Below are positions 41,564 through 50,413 of a stretch of DNA of 64,000 bases, piece after piece. This stretch comes from Streptomyces sp. T12. GTDB taxonomy: Bacteria; Actinomycetota; Actinomycetes; Streptomycetales; Streptomycetaceae. Each line of letters starts with the position of its first letter. Position 1 is the stretch's first letter. Both the position numbers and the translations under genes were made by a program. The stretch spans positions 1,736,001 through 1,800,000 of the forward strand of contig NZ_CP117866.1 in NCBI RefSeq assembly GCF_028736035.1, read 5' to 3'. Below the pieces are notes generated by a model. That model was given only the letters and a program-made list of their open reading frames with translations, did not search any database and had not been told where the DNA came from.

Positions 41564-43723
41564 TCACCCGATATCAGGCGGATCAATCCGAACCCGCACC
41601 GCGGGCACGTCCCCACCTCCCCGCGCCATCCGCGCCGCCTGCGCGGCCTTCAACGCGGACGCCAACGCGGCCCCGCTCCCAGGCGGGACCCGGATCAACG
41701 CCCGGTCCCAGTGCTCCCCGGGCGGCGGCGCCCCCGCACGCCGCGGCGAGGCCACCGCCGTGACGGGCAGCGGCACGGGCCCCAACACCTCGGCCTCCGG
41801 CGGCAGTTCGGCCGTACCGAGGAACTCGGCGACCGTCTCGCCCGGCCCGGCCACGGCAGCCATCCGGGACACCGGCGGAAACCCCAGCTCGGTCCGCTCG
41901 GCAAGCTCCCGCACCGCGTGCCCGACGGGATCCCACCGCACCAGCGCCTGCACAGGCCGCAGCGTGGGCTCGGCGACGACGACCACCGTCCCCCCGGCAC
42001 TCTGCGGCCGTACCAGCGAGGCAGCCGCGATCCAGCGACGCAGCGCGTCCTCCCCCGCCCGCAGATCGGGCCGCCCGAGCATGGCCCAGCCGTCCAGCAG
42101 CAGGGCCGCCGCATACCCGCCCTCGGCGACCGGCTCGGCCCCCGGTGTGCTCACGACCAGCGAGGGCGTGTCCGGCACGGTGTCCAGCACATGGTCACGC
42201 CCGGAGGTCCGCACCGGAACGGCGGGAAAGGCCCGCCCCAGCTCCTCGGCGGTCCGCCGCGCCCCCACCACCTGAGCCCGCAACCGGAACCCCCCGCACT
42301 CAGGACAGTGCCAGCCCCCCTCCTCCGCACGCCCGCACCACCCACACCGCAGATCGGCCCCCGAGCCCCGCGCCTCCAGCGGCCCGGAACAGTGCCGGCA
42401 CCGAGCCGGCGCCCGGCAGTTGGCACAGGCCATCCGCGGCACGTACCCGCGCCGAGGCACCTGGACCAGGACCGGACCCTGCCGCAGTCCCTCCCTCACC
42501 ACCTGCCAGGCGAGGGTCGGCAGCCGAGCGGCCCGAGCGGCCTCGTCCCGCGCCAGATCTGCGTCCCCCACGGTCCGTACGAGCGGAGCCGCGCCCCGCA
42601 CCCGCTCCCGCCCGGCGACGAGCGGCCGGGCCCAGCCGCTCTCCACAAGCTGGGCGGCCTCGACGGTGCAGCTCCAACTCCCCAGCAGAAAGCCACACTT
42701 GTCCTGCGCGGCCCGAAGCAGCAGCACTTCACGCGCATGAGGCTGCGGGGCATGCTGCTCGCTATGGCTGTCGTCACCGTCGTCCCACAGCGCGACCAGC
42801 CCGAGGTCCTGCACCGGAGCGAACATGGCGGCCCGAGTCCCCACGACCGCCCGCACGGCCCCCCGCCGCACCGCGAGCCACTCCCGGTACCGCTTCTCGG
42901 GCCCGGCATCGGCGGTCAGCACCGCATGCCGCCCCGCCCCCAGCAGCGCGGTCAGGGCGGCATCGACCCGCGCGACGGCCCGACCGTCCGGCAGGACGAC
43001 CAGCGCTCCGCGCCCGGAAGCCAGCGTCGCGACGACGGCCCGGGCCAGCTCCTCACTCCACTCGGGCCCGGGCAGCGCATTCCACACGGCCCGCGGCGCA
43101 CCCCCGGAGGCCAGCGCCTCCAAAAAGACGGCCCCCCGCTCATACCGCCCCCAGGACCCCACCTCGGGCCTAGCGGGAGCCGGAAGCGGCTCCGGCGAAG
43201 GCCGCTGCTCGGCCCGCGCACTGCGCGGCGGCACGGCCAGCTGCAACACATCGGCCAGCCCTCCGGCATACCGATCGGCAACCGCCCGCGCGAGCCCCAG
43301 CAACTCCTCGCTCAGCACCCGCTCGGGCGAAACGACCTGCGCGAGCGCCGCAAGGGGCCCGGAGTAGTCGGACTCGGCAACCCGCTCGACCAGGAACCCG
43401 TCAATGAGCCCCCCGCCCTCGCGCCGCCCCTCCCGCACCCGATGCCGCCCGGCCCCGAACCGCACCCGCACCCGCACCCCGGGCTGCGCTTCGGCATCGA
43501 GCTCCTCCGGCACGGCATAGTCGAAGTACCGATCAAGGTGCAGCACACCCTTGTCGACCAGCACCCGCGCCACGGGCAACTCCTTGGCCAGCGCGGCCCC
43601 CCGCCACGTCCGCGGCTTGGCCTTGGGCACCCTGGCCTTGCGCACACTCTCCCGAATGAGCGCAAGCTGCTCGGGCGGCGCCCCCTCGGCCCCACCACCC
43701 GTCTGCCCGTTCTCGCTGCTCAC
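41564..43723 (-). CDS. priA: Replication restart protein PriA (actinobacterial, helicase motifs degenerate)
   Basis: A 719-residue primosomal protein N' homologue. The N-terminal DNA-binding domain is clear (VARVLVDKGVLHLDRYFDYAVPEELDAEAQPGVRVRVRFG). The zinc-binding region keeps its cysteine pairs (CANCRAPARCRHCSG, CGWCGRAEEGGWHCPECGG). However, where PriA normally has the Walker A GVTGSGKT there is NALPGPEWSEELA, and the DEEH box reads WDDGDDSH. ATP-driven helicase activity is therefore unlikely, as noted for other actinobacterial PriA proteins. I start at the GTG at 43723 (MSSENGQTGG); a TTG at 43753 is possible. It is followed by a heptamer repeat and converges on the small HTH gene. Confidence 0.9.
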   Translation of the reverse strand: MSSENGQTGGGAEGAPPEQLALIRESVRKARVPKAKPRTWRGAALAKELPVARVLVDKGVLHLDRYFDYAVPEELDAEAQPGVRVRVRFGAGRHRVREGRREGGGLIDGFLVERVAESDYSGPLAALAQVVSPERVLSEELLGLARAVADRYAGGLADVLQLAVPPRSARAEQRPSPEPLPAPARPEVGSWGRYERGAVFLEALASGGAPRAVWNALPGPEWSEELARAVVATLASGRGALVVLPDGRAVARVDAALTALLGAGRHAVLTADAGPEKRYREWLAVRRGAVRAVVGTRAAMFAPVQDLGLVALWDDGDDSHSEQHAPQPHAREVLLLRAAQDKCGFLLGSWSCTVEAAQLVESGWARPLVAGRERVRGAAPLVRTVGDADLARDEAARAARLPTLAWQVVREGLRQGPVLVQVPRRGYVPRMACANCRAPARCRHCSGPLEARGSGADLRCGWCGRAEEGGWHCPECGGFRLRAQVVGARRTAEELGRAFPAVPVRTSGRDHVLDTVPDTPSLVVSTPGAEPVAEGGYAAALLLDGWAMLGRPDLRAGEDALRRWIAAASLVRPQSAGGTVVVVAEPTLRPVQALVRWDPVGHAVRELAERTELGFPPVSRMAAVAGPGETVAEFLGTAELPPEAEVLGPVPLPVTAVASPRRAGAPPPGEHWDRALIRVPPGSGAALASALKAAQAARMARGGGDVPAVRVRIDPPDIG

Positions 43724-44052
43724 GCTTGCATTCTTACCAAACACCACTGACAACCGACGCCCGACCGAGATCAGCCCGGTCCCGGATCACGTACGCGCGC
43801 ATCGCCCCGCGCCGGCGTCGCCTGACCCAAGATCACGAGCGTACGAACCCGCAAGCCCGCGCTGTCGGCCATTTCCGATCTGCGATTCGGCCCGAACCGA
43901 TCATCAAGGCTTGAGTCCGACCTCCGCCGGTATCAGAACTGGAAACGGGAAACTCCGCCGGCAGCCTTGCCCGGACCGCTCGCCCGGCGGACGCTGAATC
44001 GCGACGACGGACGGCCCAGCGCATCCGCTGCGTCGGCATGAGGGGGGATCAC

Positions 44053-45351
44053 ATGCTGGAGCAGCCACCTGTGTTCGGTGCCGAACTGCGCCGCTTGCGG
44101 ATGGCCGCCGGGCTCACACTGGCGCAGTTCGCTGCCTCGGTGCACTACAGCAAGGGGCAGATCAGCAAGATCGAGACGGGGCAGCAGCGAGCGACGCCCG
44201 AATTCGCCCGTCTGTGCGACGTGGCACTCGACACCGGCGGCACGCTCGAGGCCCTCGCCCCCACGCGTGCCCGCCGCCGTCGTACCGGACAGCTCCCCGT
44301 CCCCGACCAGGCAGGAGCCATGCGAGAGACACCGCCCGAACGGCCCGGCGACACTCCTTGGCCGCCCCCTTCCCGCCGGCAGCTCATGGCAGCCGGGGCC
44401 ATGTCCGTGTTCGGCATCGGAGCCGCGCCCCCTCACCCCGACCCCTCCGACCAGCCTCTGCTGGACGCTTACCGCACCCTCTTCGACCAGTACCGGCGCA
44501 TCGGCCAGCTGTCGTCACCGAGAGCCCTGCTGCCGACGCTGGCCGAACAGACGAGCGCGCTGCGTGCGTTGGCCGCACGCACGGGCGGCCGCAGCGGCCC
44601 TCGCCTGCTGAACCTGGCGGCACGCTTCGCGGAGTACACCGGGTGGATGGCGCAGGAGGCGGGCGACGAAGCAGCGGCCGCGCGCTGGACCAGCCATGCC
44701 GTGGACCTCGCCGGATCGGCGGGCGACCGCCAGCTGGCGTCGTACTCCCTGGTCCGTCACGCGCTGATCACCTACTACCGGGGAGAGGCCGCTGACACCG
44801 TCGACCTGGCCGAAGGGGCCCTGAGCGGCGCTCTGCCGCCCCGCATCCGCGCCCTGGCGGCACAACGCGTGGGCCAGGGACATGCCCTGGGCGGCGACCA
44901 CGACGCCTGCATGCGCCATCTCGACCGAGCCCGCGACCTCTTCGACCTGGCCGCCGCCGAGACTTCCGAGCCCGACGCCCCCGTTCTCGGCACGGCACAC
45001 CTGAGCGACCCGGTTTCCCTGGTGACGGGCTGGTGCCTGGTGGATCTCGGCCGGCCTCGGCAGGCGGCCGACATCCTCGACGTCGAATGTGCCCGCATCC
45101 CCGCGCACGCCCTGCGGAACCACGCCCGCTACGGCGCCCGGCGCGCCCTCGCACACGCCCTGTCCGGCGAGATCGATCACGCCTGTGAGCTGACCGGTCA
45201 CCTGCTGCGGAACACGGCCTGCGTGGGCTCCGAGACCGTCGCGACCGACCTGCGCCGCCTTGCCCGCGTCCTGGCCCGGCACCCGCACCGTCCCGCCTGC
45301 CAGGCCGTCGCGGCCCCGCTCACCGCTTCCCTCACCCCGCCGGAGCTCTGA
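44053..45351 (+). CDS. XRE-family regulator with TPR-like C-terminal region
   Basis: A 432-residue protein. Residues about 8-60 form a Cro/XRE helix-turn-helix (ELRRLRMAAGLTLAQFAASVHYSKGQISKIETGQQ). A Pro-rich linker follows, then about 300 residues of helical repeats resembling TPRs (for example LLNLAARFAEYTGWMAQEAGDEAAAARWTSHAVDLAGSAGDRQLASYSLVRHAL). The SRRQLMAAGAMSVFGIGAA segment near residue 110 looks Tat-like but is internal. I start at the ATG at 44053, with GAGGGGGG just upstream. It is the first gene of a four-gene block and ends 41 bp before the TIR gene. It is probably the block's regulator or sensor. The 329-bp gap before it (43724-44052) shows no element I can name. Confidence 0.85.
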   Translation: MLEQPPVFGAELRRLRMAAGLTLAQFAASVHYSKGQISKIETGQQRATPEFARLCDVALDTGGTLEALAPTRARRRRTGQLPVPDQAGAMRETPPERPGDTPWPPPSRRQLMAAGAMSVFGIGAAPPHPDPSDQPLLDAYRTLFDQYRRIGQLSSPRALLPTLAEQTSALRALAARTGGRSGPRLLNLAARFAEYTGWMAQEAGDEAAAARWTSHAVDLAGSAGDRQLASYSLVRHALITYYRGEAADTVDLAEGALSGALPPRIRALAAQRVGQGHALGGDHDACMRHLDRARDLFDLAAAETSEPDAPVLGTAHLSDPVSLVTGWCLVDLGRPRQAADILDVECARIPAHALRNHARYGARRALAHALSGEIDHACELTGHLLRNTACVGSETVATDLRRLARVLARHPHRPACQAVAAPLTASLTPPEL

Positions 45352-45392
45352 CCGGCGCACTCCCGTCCCTCAGGCAGAGAGGCCATTCCGCC

Positions 45393-46100
45393 ATGCCCGA
45401 AATCTTCATCAACTACCGCACCGGCGACGGCGAACAGGTCGCGGCGACCCTCGACAACGCGCTGCGCACCCGCTTCGGCGACGACCACGTCTATCGGGCC
45501 AGCCGCTCGATCGCGCCCGGTGACCTGTTCGACAGCGACCTGATCACCAACGTGCGCAACAGCTCCGTCCTCCTCGCCCTCATCGGCGACCGCTGGCTGG
45601 ACAAGCCCACGCTCGGCACCGACGAGGACTGGGTCACCAAGGAGATCCTGGAAGCCTTCCGCCACGACATCCGGGTCATCCCCGTGCTCATCGGCCGACG
45701 CACCGAACGGCCGGCCAAGCGCGACCTGCCCGACAGTCTTCTGTGGCTCACCGACTGCCAGACCCTCCGCTACGACCACCAGACCGACGAACGCGACCTG
45801 AAGCACATCGGCGACGCACTCGCGGACCTCGTCCCCTCACTCGCCGCCGCCGACCGCACGGTCCAAGAGCCGGACGCGCCCGCGGCGACCGGCAACAGCA
45901 CGGGCGATCTGAACAACTCATGGGTGGTGCACACGGGTCAGGTCACGGGCGGCGCCATCCATATCGGCCCCGACGAATCGCGCCACAGCCACCACACCGT
46001 CCACCAGAACGGAACCGGCGCCAACTATGTGGCGGGAGACAACCACGGCGGCATCCGCCAGAGCTTCGGCGCCACCCCGCCGGCCGAGGACGGCGAGTGA
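45393..46100 (+). CDS. TIR-domain protein with Gly/Asn/His-rich C-terminal tail
   Basis: A 235-residue protein. Residues 1-145 are a bacterial TIR domain: strand A EIFINYRTGD, the BB-loop region HVYRASRSIAPGDLF, strand C SSVLLALIGDRWL, and DEDWVTKEILEAF, where E84 occupies the position of the catalytic glutamate of NAD-cleaving TIRs. The tail (about 160-235) is low-complexity, with NNSWVVHTGQVTGGAIHIG and GANYVAGDNHGGIRQSFG. This resembles the short beta-arch amyloid signalling motifs found on bacterial TIR and NLR-like proteins. NADase or signalling activity is inference. Its stop overlaps the next gene's GTG by 4 bp. Confidence 0.88.
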   Translation: MPEIFINYRTGDGEQVAATLDNALRTRFGDDHVYRASRSIAPGDLFDSDLITNVRNSSVLLALIGDRWLDKPTLGTDEDWVTKEILEAFRHDIRVIPVLIGRRTERPAKRDLPDSLLWLTDCQTLRYDHQTDERDLKHIGDALADLVPSLAAADRTVQEPDAPAATGNSTGDLNNSWVVHTGQVTGGAIHIGPDESRHSHHTVHQNGTGANYVAGDNHGGIRQSFGATPPAEDGE

Positions 46101-48058
46101 CGACCGATGTCCCCGGCCCACCGGGCGACGAACCGACCCAGCCGGGAACGACGAACAACTACCACATCCTCTTCGGACAGGCCCCCTCGCCGACGCCCGC
46201 CTCGCCCCGACAGGTGGCCGAACAGCAACTGCGCCACCTCCAACGGCGGTTCGCCCGTCCCGGCAACCTCAACGACGCCTACGACACCCTGGAAGAGCAC
46301 AACATCGTCTTCCTCGACGGCGCCCCGGGAAACGGCAGGACCTCGGCGGCCCGCGTCCTCCTGCGTGAACTGCCGCGCGGCACGGGGATCTACCACGAGA
46401 TCGCCACCGTTCTGGAGGGAAGATCACCGGAGATCCTCTCCCCCGGCCTCGTCGGGGAGGAGGACCGCATGCTGCTGGACCTGTCGGCGGTGGGCGAAGA
46501 CCTCTGGAAGCAGTACCACGACAGACTCCTCGGCTTTCACAAGATCCTCGCGGACAAGCGGGCGTACCTGGCCGTCGTGCTCCCGCATCAGTACGCGGAC
46601 CAGTTGAGTCCGGACTTCACCGGCTACCGCAGGCCGGTCAACCGTCCCGACGAGTTGGATGTGGTGGCCTCCCGTCTGCGCGCGGACGGTGTCACCGTCG
46701 GCCGTCCCCGGCCGGCTCCGCCCGCGCTGCGCGAGTATCTGGGCATCCACCCACCCATGCGTGAGCTGGCACGGCTGGCCGATCTCATCCTGGAGGCGCG
46801 CAAGGCGCTGCGTCCGGACAGCACCTTCACGGACTGGTGCGACCTGGCGATCACGGCTCAGACCGCCCGGGCCGAGGAGGTCGACTCCTTCGTCCCGGGA
46901 CTGCGGAAGGGTCCTCAGCGGGCCCTGCTGCTAACCGTGGCCATGCTGCACGGGGCACCCGCCGATATCGTCCATCGGGCCACGGCACTCCTCCAGGAAC
47001 TCCTCGGCATCCCGCAGGACGACCGCCCGCTCCTCGAACACAAGGGGCTCACCGAGCGCCTGCACAAGGTCGGCGCGACCCGCGACGACACGACCTGTGT
47101 GCACTTCGAGAAGCTCCGCTACGACCATGCCGTGCGCCGCCACTTCTGGCTGAACATGCCGGACCTTCGCGACCCGCTGCGCCAGTGGGTGGACCAGGTG
47201 CTCGAGCTGCCGCAGCTCCCCGACATCGACCACAGGCGGCTCGTCGTGCGGTTCGCGGAGCTGTGCCTGGCCACGGACCAGGACGAGCTGTTCCGTACCG
47301 CCTCGGCCTGGGCGGGGAAACGAGGCAGCAGGGCGACCGTGACGTACCTGCGTGCCGCCGCGGAGTTGCTCCGCTGGGGTGTCGAGAACGAGGAGACCAG
47401 CCAGCTCTTCCGCACGACGATCTACTCATGGTCGAAGAACTCGATCACGGCCGGACTGCGCCATGTCCTGATCGCGGTGTGCGCCGGGGTCATGTCGGTC
47501 CACTACCCGGAACAGGCCGTCGTCCGACTGCACCACCTGGCCCGCCGAGAACCGCCCCGCGAACCCAGGGCTCGTGGCGTCCTGCTGGAATTCGTCGCAC
47601 AGGACCTACGGCTCCAGCTCTACCTCCTCTACCGTCTGTTTCTCTTCTCCCCCACCAACCCCAGGCACAAGGAGTTCGACGCCCGCCTGTTCCTCGATCT
47701 CGTCGCCGTACCGACCTGGCCCGCGCACTCCTTCCTCCGCAACCCCGTGACCCGGGACTGGCTCGCGGGGTGCTGGACGGCCGTGTTCCGGCACACCGAC
47801 AGCGTGATCTGGCCGCCGTGTGTCAAGCAGTGGATCAGGGCCGCGAACAGCTCCGACGACCCGGCGCTCGTCCACCACGCCCTGAGCGTGCTGGTCGACG
47901 CCGCGGCCGGCAGCTATCGCGCTCTCCGCCAGGTCTACGCCACGGCCCGCGCCTCGCTCTCCGCCGAAGAGGCCCGCCTGCTCCTGTCCAGGATCCATGA
48001 GGCTCAGCGCGCAGGCCTGTCACCGCGGTCCAAGTCACAGGAGGGTCCACAGTCATGA
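46097..48058 (+). CDS. P-loop protein with variant Walker A (Arg for Lys), conflict-system NTPase-like
   Basis: A 653-residue protein that I cannot assign to a named family. A Pro-rich N-terminus contains TTNNYHILFGQAP (residues 18-30), then a helical segment. IVFLDGAPGNGRTSAARVLL (70-89) reads as a P-loop (GxxGxGxTS) whose usual Lys is Arg81. RMLLDLSAV near 125 could be Walker B. The remaining 450 residues are helical, with repeats like those of STAND/NLR sensor regions and several Trp-rich stretches near the end. No transmembrane segment. It starts at a GTG overlapping the TIR stop and ends overlapping the membrane protein start, so all three are tightly coupled. Confidence 0.75.
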   Translation: MTTDVPGPPGDEPTQPGTTNNYHILFGQAPSPTPASPRQVAEQQLRHLQRRFARPGNLNDAYDTLEEHNIVFLDGAPGNGRTSAARVLLRELPRGTGIYHEIATVLEGRSPEILSPGLVGEEDRMLLDLSAVGEDLWKQYHDRLLGFHKILADKRAYLAVVLPHQYADQLSPDFTGYRRPVNRPDELDVVASRLRADGVTVGRPRPAPPALREYLGIHPPMRELARLADLILEARKALRPDSTFTDWCDLAITAQTARAEEVDSFVPGLRKGPQRALLLTVAMLHGAPADIVHRATALLQELLGIPQDDRPLLEHKGLTERLHKVGATRDDTTCVHFEKLRYDHAVRRHFWLNMPDLRDPLRQWVDQVLELPQLPDIDHRRLVVRFAELCLATDQDELFRTASAWAGKRGSRATVTYLRAAAELLRWGVENEETSQLFRTTIYSWSKNSITAGLRHVLIAVCAGVMSVHYPEQAVVRLHHLARREPPREPRARGVLLEFVAQDLRLQLYLLYRLFLFSPTNPRHKEFDARLFLDLVAVPTWPAHSFLRNPVTRDWLAGCWTAVFRHTDSVIWPPCVKQWIRAANSSDDPALVHHALSVLVDAAAGSYRALRQVYATARASLSAEEARLLLSRIHEAQRAGLSPRSKSQEGPQS

Positions 48059-49131
48059 GTTCCGGTCAGAAGACCGTCTCCGTCTTTCTCATGCTGATCA
48101 GCTCGATGCTCGTGCTGATCCTCGGTCTGTACGTGTCCTGGCCGATCTGGGCCTGGCCCGTCGCCGTCGTTCTCCTGGGAGCGTCCTGGGCAGGGGCCAC
48201 GACCGCGGCGTCGCGAGTGAACCGGGGGAAGCTGTTCCCCGACACCGTGACGGCACCGCCGGTGCCGGAGGTGGAGCGTCGCGAGCTGTCCGTGAAGGAC
48301 GTCGCACTGCCGAGTGCGCTGGAGGACTACGACTTCCTCCTGTCCGCGACCATCCGCTGGTGTCCCGAGAAGCCCTACGCGCAGGAGACCGGGATCCACC
48401 ACGGAGGGTTGGCGGTGGAAGCCATCCTCGCCCGCGCCCGGACCATCACCGCTGCCTGCGATCCCTTCCGCAGCTCCCTCGTTCAACACGAACTGAGCGG
48501 AGCGCTGGCCGAGATGTACCCCGACCGCAGCGGGCACATCCGGGCGATGGCCCTGGACGTCGTACTCCGGCTCTCCGAGGAGGACCAGAACCGGCTGGAC
48601 CGACTCGCCGCCATCCGCAAGGACGAGGAGCTGTGGGAGCACGAACGCAAATGGGAGAAGAGCCGTCGCGCCTATCTGGGCGACGACGTCCTGCGTGACA
48701 CGGGACGTGCCGTGGTCTGGTGGCTGGCCAAGAACGACGACCAGGTGGAGAAGACCGTCGAGGACATCGGGCTGCTCGCCCGGCTCACCTCGGCCGCCAA
48801 CAACGAACAGGTCGCCGAGCCCTTCCGGCATCTCGTGCCGGACGCCTTCCCCGAGACGCCTGCGGCAAAGACGCCACGCGGTCCGGCCGACCTGTTCACC
48901 GACTTCATGCAGGGGCTGGGCTTCAAGCCCGGCGCCGACGACTGCATGATGGTCGCCGATCAGGTGGCCATGGCCATAAAGGAAAAGGACGCGGAGGCGG
49001 CCGAGGAGATCCGCAACCGGTTCGCCCCACCCAACGAGAGCGAAGACCAGGGCCGGGACGGGGATGACGACGGCGGCGGAGACGATCCGGACGCCCCTTC
49101 GACGGGCATCGGGCCTGTCACCGAGGAGTAG
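48055..49131 (+). CDS. Two-TM membrane protein with long cytosolic domain
   Basis: A 358-residue protein with two hydrophobic helices at the N-terminus (VFLMLISSMLVLILGLYV and IWAWPVAVVLLGASWAG, about residues 10-48) and a cytosolic domain. The beta-rich start of that domain (LPSALEDYDFLLSATIRWCP) and following helices loosely recall SPFH/band-7 proteins. A charged helix with coiled-coil character (LDRLAAIRKDEELWEHERKWEKSRRAYL) comes next, then VVWWLAKNDD, and a very acidic tail (DDDGGGDDPDAP). It starts with a 4-bp overlap with the P-loop gene. The likely role is a membrane anchor or effector for the TIR/P-loop pair. I do not recognise the family with confidence. Confidence 0.7.
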   Translation: MSSGQKTVSVFLMLISSMLVLILGLYVSWPIWAWPVAVVLLGASWAGATTAASRVNRGKLFPDTVTAPPVPEVERRELSVKDVALPSALEDYDFLLSATIRWCPEKPYAQETGIHHGGLAVEAILARARTITAACDPFRSSLVQHELSGALAEMYPDRSGHIRAMALDVVLRLSEEDQNRLDRLAAIRKDEELWEHERKWEKSRRAYLGDDVLRDTGRAVVWWLAKNDDQVEKTVEDIGLLARLTSAANNEQVAEPFRHLVPDAFPETPAAKTPRGPADLFTDFMQGLGFKPGADDCMMVADQVAMAIKEKDAEAAEEIRNRFAPPNESEDQGRDGDDDGGGDDPDAPSTGIGPVTEE

Positions 49132-49204: not shown

Positions 49205-50413
49205 CTACAGCCCCACAGCCTTCCGCAGCGCCTCCACCCGGTCCGTCCGCTCCCAGGTGAACTCCGGCAGCTCACGGCCGAAGTGGCCGTAGGCCGCGGT
49301 CTGGGCGTAGATCGGGCGCAGCAGGTCCAGGTCGCGGATGATCGCGGCCGGGCGCAGGTCGAAGACCTCGTCGATGGCCTTCTCGATCTTCTCGGTGTCG
49401 ATCTTGGCCGTACCGAAGGTCTCGACGAACAGACCGACGGGCTCGGCCTTGCCGATCGCGTACGCCACCTGCACCTCGCAGCGCGCGGCAAGGCCCGCGG
49501 CGACGATGTTCTTGGCGACCCAGCGCATCGCGTACGCGGCCGAGCGGTCCACCTTGGACGGGTCCTTGCCCGAGAAGGCACCACCGCCGTGGCGGGCCAT
49601 GCCGCCGTACGTGTCGATGATGATCTTCCGACCGGTCAGGCCCGCGTCACCCATCGGGCCGCCGATCTCGAAGCGGCCGGTGGGGTTGACCAGGAGACGG
49701 TAGTTCTCGGTGTCCAGCTTGATGCCGTCGTCGAGGAGAGCCTTGAGCTCCGGCTCGACCACGAACTCCCGGATGTCGGGGGCGAGGAGCGAGTCCAGGT
49801 CGATGTCGCTCGCGTGCTGCGAGGAGACCACGACCGTGTCCAGGCGGACCGCCTTGTCGCCGTCGTACTCGATGGTGACCTGCGTCTTGCCGTCCGGGCG
49901 CAGGTAGGGGATCGTGCCGTTCTTGCGGACCTCGGACAGGCGCTTGGACAGGCGGTGCGCCAGGAAGATCGGCAGCGGCATCAGCGTCGGCGTCTCGTCC
50001 GTCGCGTAGCCGAACATCAGGCCCTGGTCACCGGCACCCTGGCGGTCCAGCTCGTCTTCGTCGCCCTCGACCCGGGACTCGTACGCCGTGTCCACGCCCT
50101 GCGCGATGTCCGGCGACTGCGCGCCGATCGAGACGGAGACACCGCAGGAGGCGCCGTCGAAGCCCTTCTTCGAGGAGTCGTAGCCGATCTCGAGGATCTT
50201 GTTGCGGACCAGCGTCGCGATGTCCGCGTACGTCTTGGTCGTGACCTCTCCGGCCACATGCACCAGGCCGGTCGTGATCAGGGTCTCGACGGCGACCCGA
50301 GAGGTCGGGTCCTCGCGCAGAAGCGCGTCGAGAATGGTGTCGCTGATCTGGTCAGCGATCTTGTCGGGGTGACCCTCGGTCACGGACTCCGAGGTGAACA
50401 GGCGACGGGACAC
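49205..50413 (-). CDS. metK: S-adenosylmethionine synthetase
   Basis: Makes SAM from methionine and ATP. The 402-residue protein shows all family signatures: [20 protein letters not shown] (ATP and metal site), [16 protein letters not shown], the methionine/ATP loop region [26 protein letters not shown] and [28 protein letters not shown] start at the GTG at 50413 with GGGAG upstream; the open frame continues 5' without homology. SAM supply affects antibiotic production in streptomycetes. It follows coaBC on the same strand, 239 bp away. I looked for a SAM riboswitch in that gap and could not identify one. Confidence 0.97.

Follow-up and report, generated by a model that had tools for sequence, protein, structure and literature searches.

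A four-gene block of Streptomyces sp. T12, encoding an XRE-type regulator, a TIR protein, a P-loop NTPase and a membrane protein, forms one conserved, co-inherited accessory unit, hereafter called the cassette. It lies in a 64,000-nucleotide stretch of contig NZ_CP117866.1 (positions 1,736,001 to 1,800,000; the window), part of an 11.46-Mb genome (G000), and the closest protein relatives that carry organism names are from Streptomyces. The NTPase is STAND/NLR-like according to its predicted fold, and in related loci enzyme and regulator are replaced together. We judge the chances to be evenly balanced that the cassette is an accessory actinobacterial signalosome, built from a STAND protein on a scaffold in the membrane, whose enzyme and regulator act as a second-messenger pair.

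Four genes form a conserved accessory unit

All four open reading frames, the 653-residue P-loop protein included, were confirmed at the positions given in a preliminary description of this DNA (44053-49131):

44053..45351, + strand: regulator with XRE helix-turn-helix (HTH) and TPR-like region, NsdA family (NF053720, HTH_31)
45393..46100, + strand: TIR protein, 235 residues (Pfam TIR_2, 38.6 bits, cut-off 28; best PDB match SARM1/TIR-1 TIR, E 2.4e-7)
46097 (GTG)..48058, + strand: NTPase, 653 residues, STAND/NLR-like by its AlphaFold2 model and Foldseek
48055..49131, + strand: membrane protein with a predicted SPFH fold, 358 residues

Related loci were gathered through matches to the NTPase or membrane protein, and the counts below therefore describe this cassette family and not TIR genes at large. 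The set combines 40 of the 50 other places found with the membrane protein (51 places in all; ten short, partial or weak ones were excluded and the window's own was not re-taken), 80 named loci obtained via the NTPase alignment, and 25 of the 27 places of a class-wide search (G000 and G056 excluded). With the window this gives 146 loci; an NTPase was called in 142 and not in the other four. Removal of 13 duplicates leaves 129 distinct loci. Gene calling relied on a simple script, and gene starts are therefore approximate.

The order XRE-TIR-NTPase-membrane protein is found in 106 of the 129 distinct loci, on one strand in all 106, which bears out the earlier view of the block as a linked unit. 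Beyond Streptomyces the hosts are Kitasatospora, Streptacidiphilus, Planomonospora, Streptosporangium, Sphaerisporangium, Frankia and Catenulispora, as well as Nocardiopsis with the regulator placed elsewhere. The linkage of the four genes is further supported by the distance matrices of their proteins, which correlate at 0.84-0.91 over 104 complete cassettes, a level reached by none of 500 permutations for any pair. The conserved order and the distance correlation rule out four unrelated neighbours. In L141, from a metagenome-assembled Streptosporangiaceae genome, TIR and NTPase are fused in a single frame of 821 residues.

Of 199 Streptomyces genomes, 50 (counting the window genome) hold a match to the membrane protein, and 49 of these 50 hold just one. 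To compare the site without the cassette, 20 of the 149 genomes lacking such a match were sampled; 19 of them yielded a metK match. At 17 of the resulting 20 metK loci priA is separated from metK by 68-386 bp (measured between aligned ends), and the remaining three comprise two loci cut by contig ends and one second metK copy. Presence in essentially all streptomycetes at priA-metK is thus refuted by the accessory distribution and the variable site, and the reading of the block as fixed streptomycete core genes falls with the 50/199 genomes and the short cassette-free intervals. Among the complete cassettes 33 of 104 are located at metK/priA and 71 elsewhere (loci at contig ends can be miscounted as elsewhere). 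The site label changes six times on the midpoint-rooted NTPase tree, compared to a mean of 28 in shuffles, and the cassette has therefore relocated a few times. One locus at priA-metK (L109, 7845-9980) is without a called TIR gene, and its called NTPase frame has an additional N-terminal stretch.

In the window the last three genes are joined by 4-bp overlaps, just as described before: the GTG start of the NTPase lies inside the TIR stop (GTGA) and the ATG start of the membrane protein, at 48055, inside the NTPase stop (ATGA). These two overlaps link the TIR, NTPase and membrane protein genes; the regulator and TIR genes are spaced by 41 bp. Across the loci compared, the 4-bp overlap offers a start codon in 40 of 41 cases between TIR and NTPase and in 35 of 41 between NTPase and membrane protein (the script sought that start, and the counts say that it was available and open). 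The regulator start at 44053 is preceded by a purine-rich stretch, and an alternative in-frame ATG is located at 44038. The 14-bp terminator said to bound the block is indeed an exact inverted repeat. The flanking genes, which we took to be priA and metK from their sequences, served as queries:

41564..43723, - strand: priA, left flank (sequence query; priA and metK close together at 17 of 20 loci without the cassette)
49154-49167/49172-49185, no strand: perfect 14-bp inverted repeat separating cassette and metK, probably a terminator (exact repeat)
49205..50413, - strand: metK, right flank (sequence query)

Predicted functions of the four proteins

Fold comparisons and family searches assign a probable role to each of the proteins, with the following features:

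45642..45644, + strand: codon of the predicted catalytic glutamate E84 (aligned with SARM1/TIR-1 TIR; invariant in 104/104 complete cassettes)
45885..46097, + strand: Gly/Asn/His-rich C-terminal tail of the TIR protein, the pairing-motif region (match not detectable in the window clade)
46097..46180, + strand: N-terminal segment of the NTPase, residues 1-28, the pairing-motif site in relatives (pLDDT below 50 for residues 1-28)
46319..46342, + strand: Walker A, GAPGNGRT, with Arg replacing Lys (Arg 101/104, Lys 0/104)
46466..46486, + strand: Walker B-like strand around D128 (Asp in 99/104)
48061..48222, + strand: N-terminal two-helix hydrophobic hairpin (model helices 3-27 and 33-56; hydrophobic in sequence)
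48265..48783, + strand: SPFH-like domain and following helices, residues 71-243 (range covered by the structure matches)

The TIR protein is a predicted NADase. Its glutamate, noted before as kept, aligns with that of SARM1 as E84. The tails of the TIR proteins are rich in glycine across the family (18% vs 7% in the core).

For the NTPase, the AlphaFold2 model (pLDDT 89.9) displays a P-loop core and helical repeats which resemble STAND structures. Foldseek returned the SIR2-STAND protein EfAvs5 (E 3.2e-6) and the STAND structure 6mfv (E 2.8e-4), in line with the earlier suggestion of a STAND-like NTPase. The window protein stays under the gathering cut-off of nSTAND3 (PF20720; 24.1 bits vs 27.2). 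We regard this as a borderline miss, since some homologues carry PF20720 and the fused protein of L141 scores 30.3. No Walker A lysine was found in any of the 104 complete cassettes.

The regulator passes the NsdA-family model (NCBIfam NF053720, 162.9 bits, cut-off 75) and Pfam HTH_31 (57.7 bits, cut-off 27), which refines the XRE protein with helical repeats of the preliminary description to an HTH-TPR protein of the NsdA family. A TPR-type ligand pocket would fit HTH-TPR sensors such as the Rap/NprR/PlcR group. In six loci (L148 and L149 from Marinactinospora and Nocardiopsis, L189, L197, L199 and L208) the XRE-TPR regulator is found on the opposite strand past the membrane protein; the regulator can therefore relocate yet remain linked.

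The membrane protein is predicted to adopt an SPFH (prohibitin/HflK-C-like) fold adjoining a membrane segment. It had been taken for a two-transmembrane effector; a pore-forming role of this kind is not obvious, and structure prediction replaced it by the SPFH fold. Pfam contains no family matching the protein at E<=1 and hence no matching Band 7 model. P0171, a protein of 534 residues with HTH Pfam domains, aligns over 79% of the membrane protein; it may be a fusion of regulator and scaffold, or two genes called as one.

Enzyme and regulator are exchanged together

In seven loci (L156 from Actinosynnema, L202, L204, L206, L207, L209 and L210) a cyclase-like protein occupies the place of the TIR protein, and in all seven a CRP-type protein, passing the Pfam cut-offs for cyclic nucleotide monophosphate (cNMP) binding and HTH_Crp_2, occupies that of the XRE regulator. 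Within four genes of the NTPase, TIR is combined with XRE in 114 loci, with neither regulator in three and with CRP in none; the cyclase-like protein is combined with CRP in seven and with XRE in none. Five loci have no separate enzyme gene of either type within this distance. An SPFH-type gene is recognised in five of the seven cyclase loci, one of which (L202, 831-3189) holds a tandem pair of genes matching the membrane-protein profile. As a cNMP-binding CRP accompanies the cyclase-like enzyme and an HTH-TPR protein the TIR enzyme, the regulator probably goes with what the enzyme makes; this is our main argument for a second-messenger pair.

A separate search with one cyclase protein gave matches in 26 of 296 genomes, at 32 places, of which 30 were taken as loci and 28 contain a called cyclase gene. 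CRP is located directly upstream in 18 of the 28, XRE in none, and ten are without CRP, including four with no visible upstream gene. The motif match described below, here with the next gene, reaches p<0.01 in 16 of 26 cases. Three loci (L234, L236 and L239) repeat earlier ones; without them the values are 15/25 for CRP directly upstream and 13/23 for the motif. Several of these motifs, e.g. NSVGTNNGQVIQADTITGDL / NSAGDVSGHLIQVGSLTGG in L241, look RHIM-like by eye.

Pfam holds nothing convincing for the exchanged enzyme, and a single-sequence search of the PDB returned only CobT (E 0.62). A profile search gave four matches at E<=5, all named Ma1120/Cyclase, with a best E of 0.011; Ma1120 is a class III cyclase. 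Of the 120 homologues listed, some bear the name of a guanylate or adenylate cyclase domain protein and most are called 'hypothetical'. Two aspartates of the cyclase pattern are invariant in all seven proteins. With profile evidence this weak, we term the enzyme cyclase-like. PADLOC returned only weak matches for the exchanged proteins and for those of the paralogous rows described next.

Two related gene rows are found in the window genome itself. In L077 (G000:C1:4380038-4383312) a 140-residue Bell-like gene, a gene for a 667-residue STAND protein with a Walker A lysine and a 255-residue gene follow each other, and the Bell-like and STAND genes carry a matched motif. L079 (G000:C1:5111362-5117285) comprises CRP-like, cyclase-like, 858-residue STAND-like and 521-residue genes in a row. 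Its 858-residue protein matches the NTPase profile with a probability of 96.8, and the proteins after the row look vWA-like and tubulin-like. By eye we had guessed an SPFH likeness for the third gene of L077 and the 521-residue gene of L079, which hhalign did not support (probability 0.3 and 3.3).

A fifth gene, mostly of about 149 residues, is located 3' of the membrane protein in 19 distinct TIR cassettes (e.g. L092, 11029-11562). Its product is hydrophobic at the N-terminus and ends in a motif that looks like RHIM, and the gene is homologous to the Bell-like gene of L077 (L077_3, E 2.7e-12). That match, the place of L077_3 in its row and the account of Bell in the accessible part of PMC7889193 suggest that the fifth gene is Bell-like. 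A VQ-type TIR tail, a pattern of our own, is present in 18 of the 19 cassettes with the fifth gene vs 29 of 98 without it, kinship being ignored.

A matched motif in enzyme tail and NTPase N-terminus

Within one cassette a common stretch occurs both in the TIR tail and at the NTPase start, e.g. VNEPQGPVNTGPGPQY / VNDARGPVNNGPGPQY in L060. When scored against shuffled tails, the match has p<0.01 in 32 of 40 cassettes. In the strictest test, with none of 100 shuffles reaching the score, 30 of 39 cassettes match compared to 0, 0, 0, 1 and 1 of 39 in five control pairings. A larger, de-duplicated set (TIR of at least 220 residues, NTPase of at least about 600; L072, where the NTPase start was not placed, excluded) gives p<0.01 in 77 of 110 TIR cassettes, all seven cyclase cassettes, two of which barely pass (p 0.00998), and the one Bell-type paralogue. 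Outside the window clade the proportion of TIR cassettes is 77/100.

The mean own-cassette score is 57.3 vs 42.5 (standard deviation 0.76) with permuted partners, and 0 of 2000 permutations reach it (131 cassettes including duplicates, kinship ignored). The own partner ranks first in 11 of 123 TIR cassettes and, out of 131, in five of the seven cyclase cassettes; for TIR it is rarely the single best because many TIR cassettes share one motif type. At the shared residues 56% of the codons agree, vs 52% expected (702 vs 655 of 1250, in 85 cassettes), a small excess, and the likeness is therefore kept mainly at the protein level. In most of the family, the window clade apart, the matched motifs look like paired amyloid-signalling motifs. 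Near relatives of the window NTPase retain a stub such as RDQYN, and the less close P0016-P0018 have a fuller motif. In the window clade the coupling may have been lost, changed past detection or replaced.

Proposed mechanism and alternative explanations

TIR enzymes and NLR-like STAND proteins are common to bacterial, plant and animal immunity. To our knowledge, neither the route from sensor to enzyme nor the reader of the enzyme's product is known in many bacterial cases. Nature provides comparisons in the present family, where a STAND core is combined with exchanged pairs of enzyme and regulator and with matched motifs specific to the cassette. Its composition and co-evolution are read directly from the genes, and every activity discussed in the following is inferred.

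In the proposed signalosome the STAND protein would sense a trigger (phage or envelope stress) and oligomerise, perhaps at membrane-bound SPFH rings. Through its N-terminal segment it would recruit the Gly/Asn-rich TIR tail, in most relatives by amyloid/RHIM-like templating, and the recruited TIR domains would cluster and thereby become active. They would consume nicotinamide adenine dinucleotide (NAD) to form an ADP-ribose-type product, with growth arrest at high activity. The XRE-TPR regulator may read either this product or the complex's own state, and control the operon; in the cyclase version CRP would read a cyclic nucleotide. A more specific version is held only tentatively. It describes a modular second-messenger signalosome in which a STAND core on an SPFH scaffold takes exchangeable pairs of enzyme and receptor-regulator, the enzyme being recruited by a cassette-specific, prion-like matched motif and the NsdA-type HTH-TPR protein being the receptor for a TIR-made nucleotide.

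Several results weigh against the proposed signalosome. The motif pairing was tested in the window copy and not found (p 0.41 and 0.52 in two tests), nor does it reach p<0.05 in any of the ten cassettes formed by the window and nine near relatives; templating for the window copy is therefore inferred from relatives. Outside this clade 14 of 100 TIR cassettes likewise miss p<0.05. The exchange of Walker A lysine for arginine means that hydrolysis may be weak. The cyclase identity of the exchanged enzyme is weakly founded, the distance correlation by itself would also follow from vertical descent, and PADLOC models match the window proteins only weakly.

An anti-phage function is plausible. Of the anti-phage or conflict reading first put forward for this DNA, the conserved unit, the TIR glutamate, the STAND-like NTPase and the accessory spread have stood; the PADLOC matches are weak, and the membrane protein, not an evident effector of pore type, is predicted to have an SPFH fold.

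Plain abortive infection is a possible but rather doubtful account of the same genes: STAND would sense phage, TIR would kill by NAD depletion, the regulator would merely repress the operon with no second messenger being read, and the SPFH protein would be an anchor or a sensor of envelope damage. It agrees with the resemblance of the TIR domain to SARM1, with Avs5/AVAST5 among the nearest NTPase folds and with the accessory distribution and varying site, yet leaves unexplained why every change of enzyme class comes with a change of regulator class (7/7) and why a cyclase-like enzyme, not obviously toxic, takes the place of TIR.

It is rather unlikely that the cassette serves endogenous developmental or envelope-stress signalling, as an NsdA-like circuit by which a mycelial organism would tie its gene expression to the state of the membrane. 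The NsdA-family regulator, the SPFH fold, the strict conservation of the four genes and the one membrane-protein match per genome (49/50) would suit such a circuit; in contrast, only about a quarter of the sampled Streptomyces genomes (50/199) carry the cassette, and one would sooner expect short cassette-free intervals and enzyme swapping from an accessory system.

That the paired motif is no coupling element, just a by-product of low-complexity tails or of duplication or gene conversion across the gene junction, appears improbable: the tails are Gly/Asn-rich, L209 has 16 of 17 identical codons on top of the small overall excess (702 vs 655 expected of 1250) and the window clade manages without a match, but composition-preserving shuffles seldom reach the score, control pairings give 0-1 of 39, the similarity lies mostly at the protein level and distinct motif types stay matched inside their own cassettes.

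If the signalosome with its second-messenger pair is real, the HTH-TPR regulator would be a candidate transcriptional receptor for TIR-made signals, representing a class of TIR-signal receptors that act directly on transcription, and membrane scaffolds would be tied to NLR-type signalling. The joint exchange of enzyme and regulator, which hints at how immune-like circuits are wired, is the most informative point of the analysis and is testable.

Comparison with known systems

The bacterial amyloid signalosomes associated with NLR proteins, with their BASS motifs, were reportedly described by Dyrka et al. in 2020. According to the accessible part of PMC7889193, NLR genes in filamentous bacteria stand beside effector genes sharing BASS motifs, with Bell as the main effector and TIR as a rarer one; such signalosomes are also treated in the accessible part of PMC8086366. 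As far as these accounts go, the cassette agrees with them in the adjoining STAND/NLR and effector genes, in the filamentous actinobacterial hosts and in TIR as a rarer effector, outside the window clade also in the short motif matched between NLR N-terminus and effector C-terminus, and further in the Bell-like fifth gene of 19 TIR cassettes and the paralogue L077. The likeness is one of arrangement as described there. The cassette differs in having four genes, an SPFH-fold protein, an HTH-TPR or CRP regulator and the joint exchange of enzyme and regulator. We do not class the window copy among the BASS signalosomes, since a test for the matched motif found none there.

With Thoeris the cassette shares a TIR enzyme which possibly makes an NAD-derived signal. 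The TIR protein matches PADLOC ThsB1 weakly and over part of the model (23.4 bits, E 6.8e-6), and ThcB4 with 23.6 bits at a cut-off of 220. The ThsA effector carries a nucleotide-binding receptor domain (SLOG or macro). No Pfam, PADLOC or NCBIfam match to a ThsA-type effector was obtained among the other three cassette genes, and a STAND NTPase and an SPFH protein stand in place of this receptor. Avs/AVAST systems (EfAvs5 and AVAST5 structures) show the same STAND architecture with a helical C-terminal region and are among the top four Foldseek matches, with low TM-scores. The cassette differs in having its enzyme on a separate polypeptide, arginine for the Walker A lysine, and an additional SPFH protein and regulator.

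In STAND and vWA systems TIR and cNMP cyclase occur as alternative second-messenger enzymes, according to the accessible parts of PMC7159879 and PMC8195603. VMAP, iSTAND and TERNS3, as presented there, resemble the cassette in their multicellular bacterial hosts, the cNMP cyclase/TIR alternatives and the adaptor domains that link effectors to NTPases. In contrast, the four cassette proteins have no Pfam match to MoxR or vWA, and the partners are SPFH and HTH-TPR or CRP proteins. With the SPFH proteins (HflK/C, prohibitin, stomatin) the cassette protein shares the predicted fold and membrane attachment; it differs in the missing Pfam Band 7 match and in its two-helix N-terminal hairpin, and the cassette is without FtsH or NfeD.

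The four-gene composition was not found in the accessible parts of PMC7159879, PMC8195603, PMC11237479 and PMC10853773, nor does any other title listed in the literature searched, whose scope stopped short of subscription papers and preprints, describe it. Within that literature the earlier remark that no described system has this exact composition holds. As far as these searches reach, the cassette is thus undescribed as a four-gene type and represents a variant of the STAND/TIR signalosomes.

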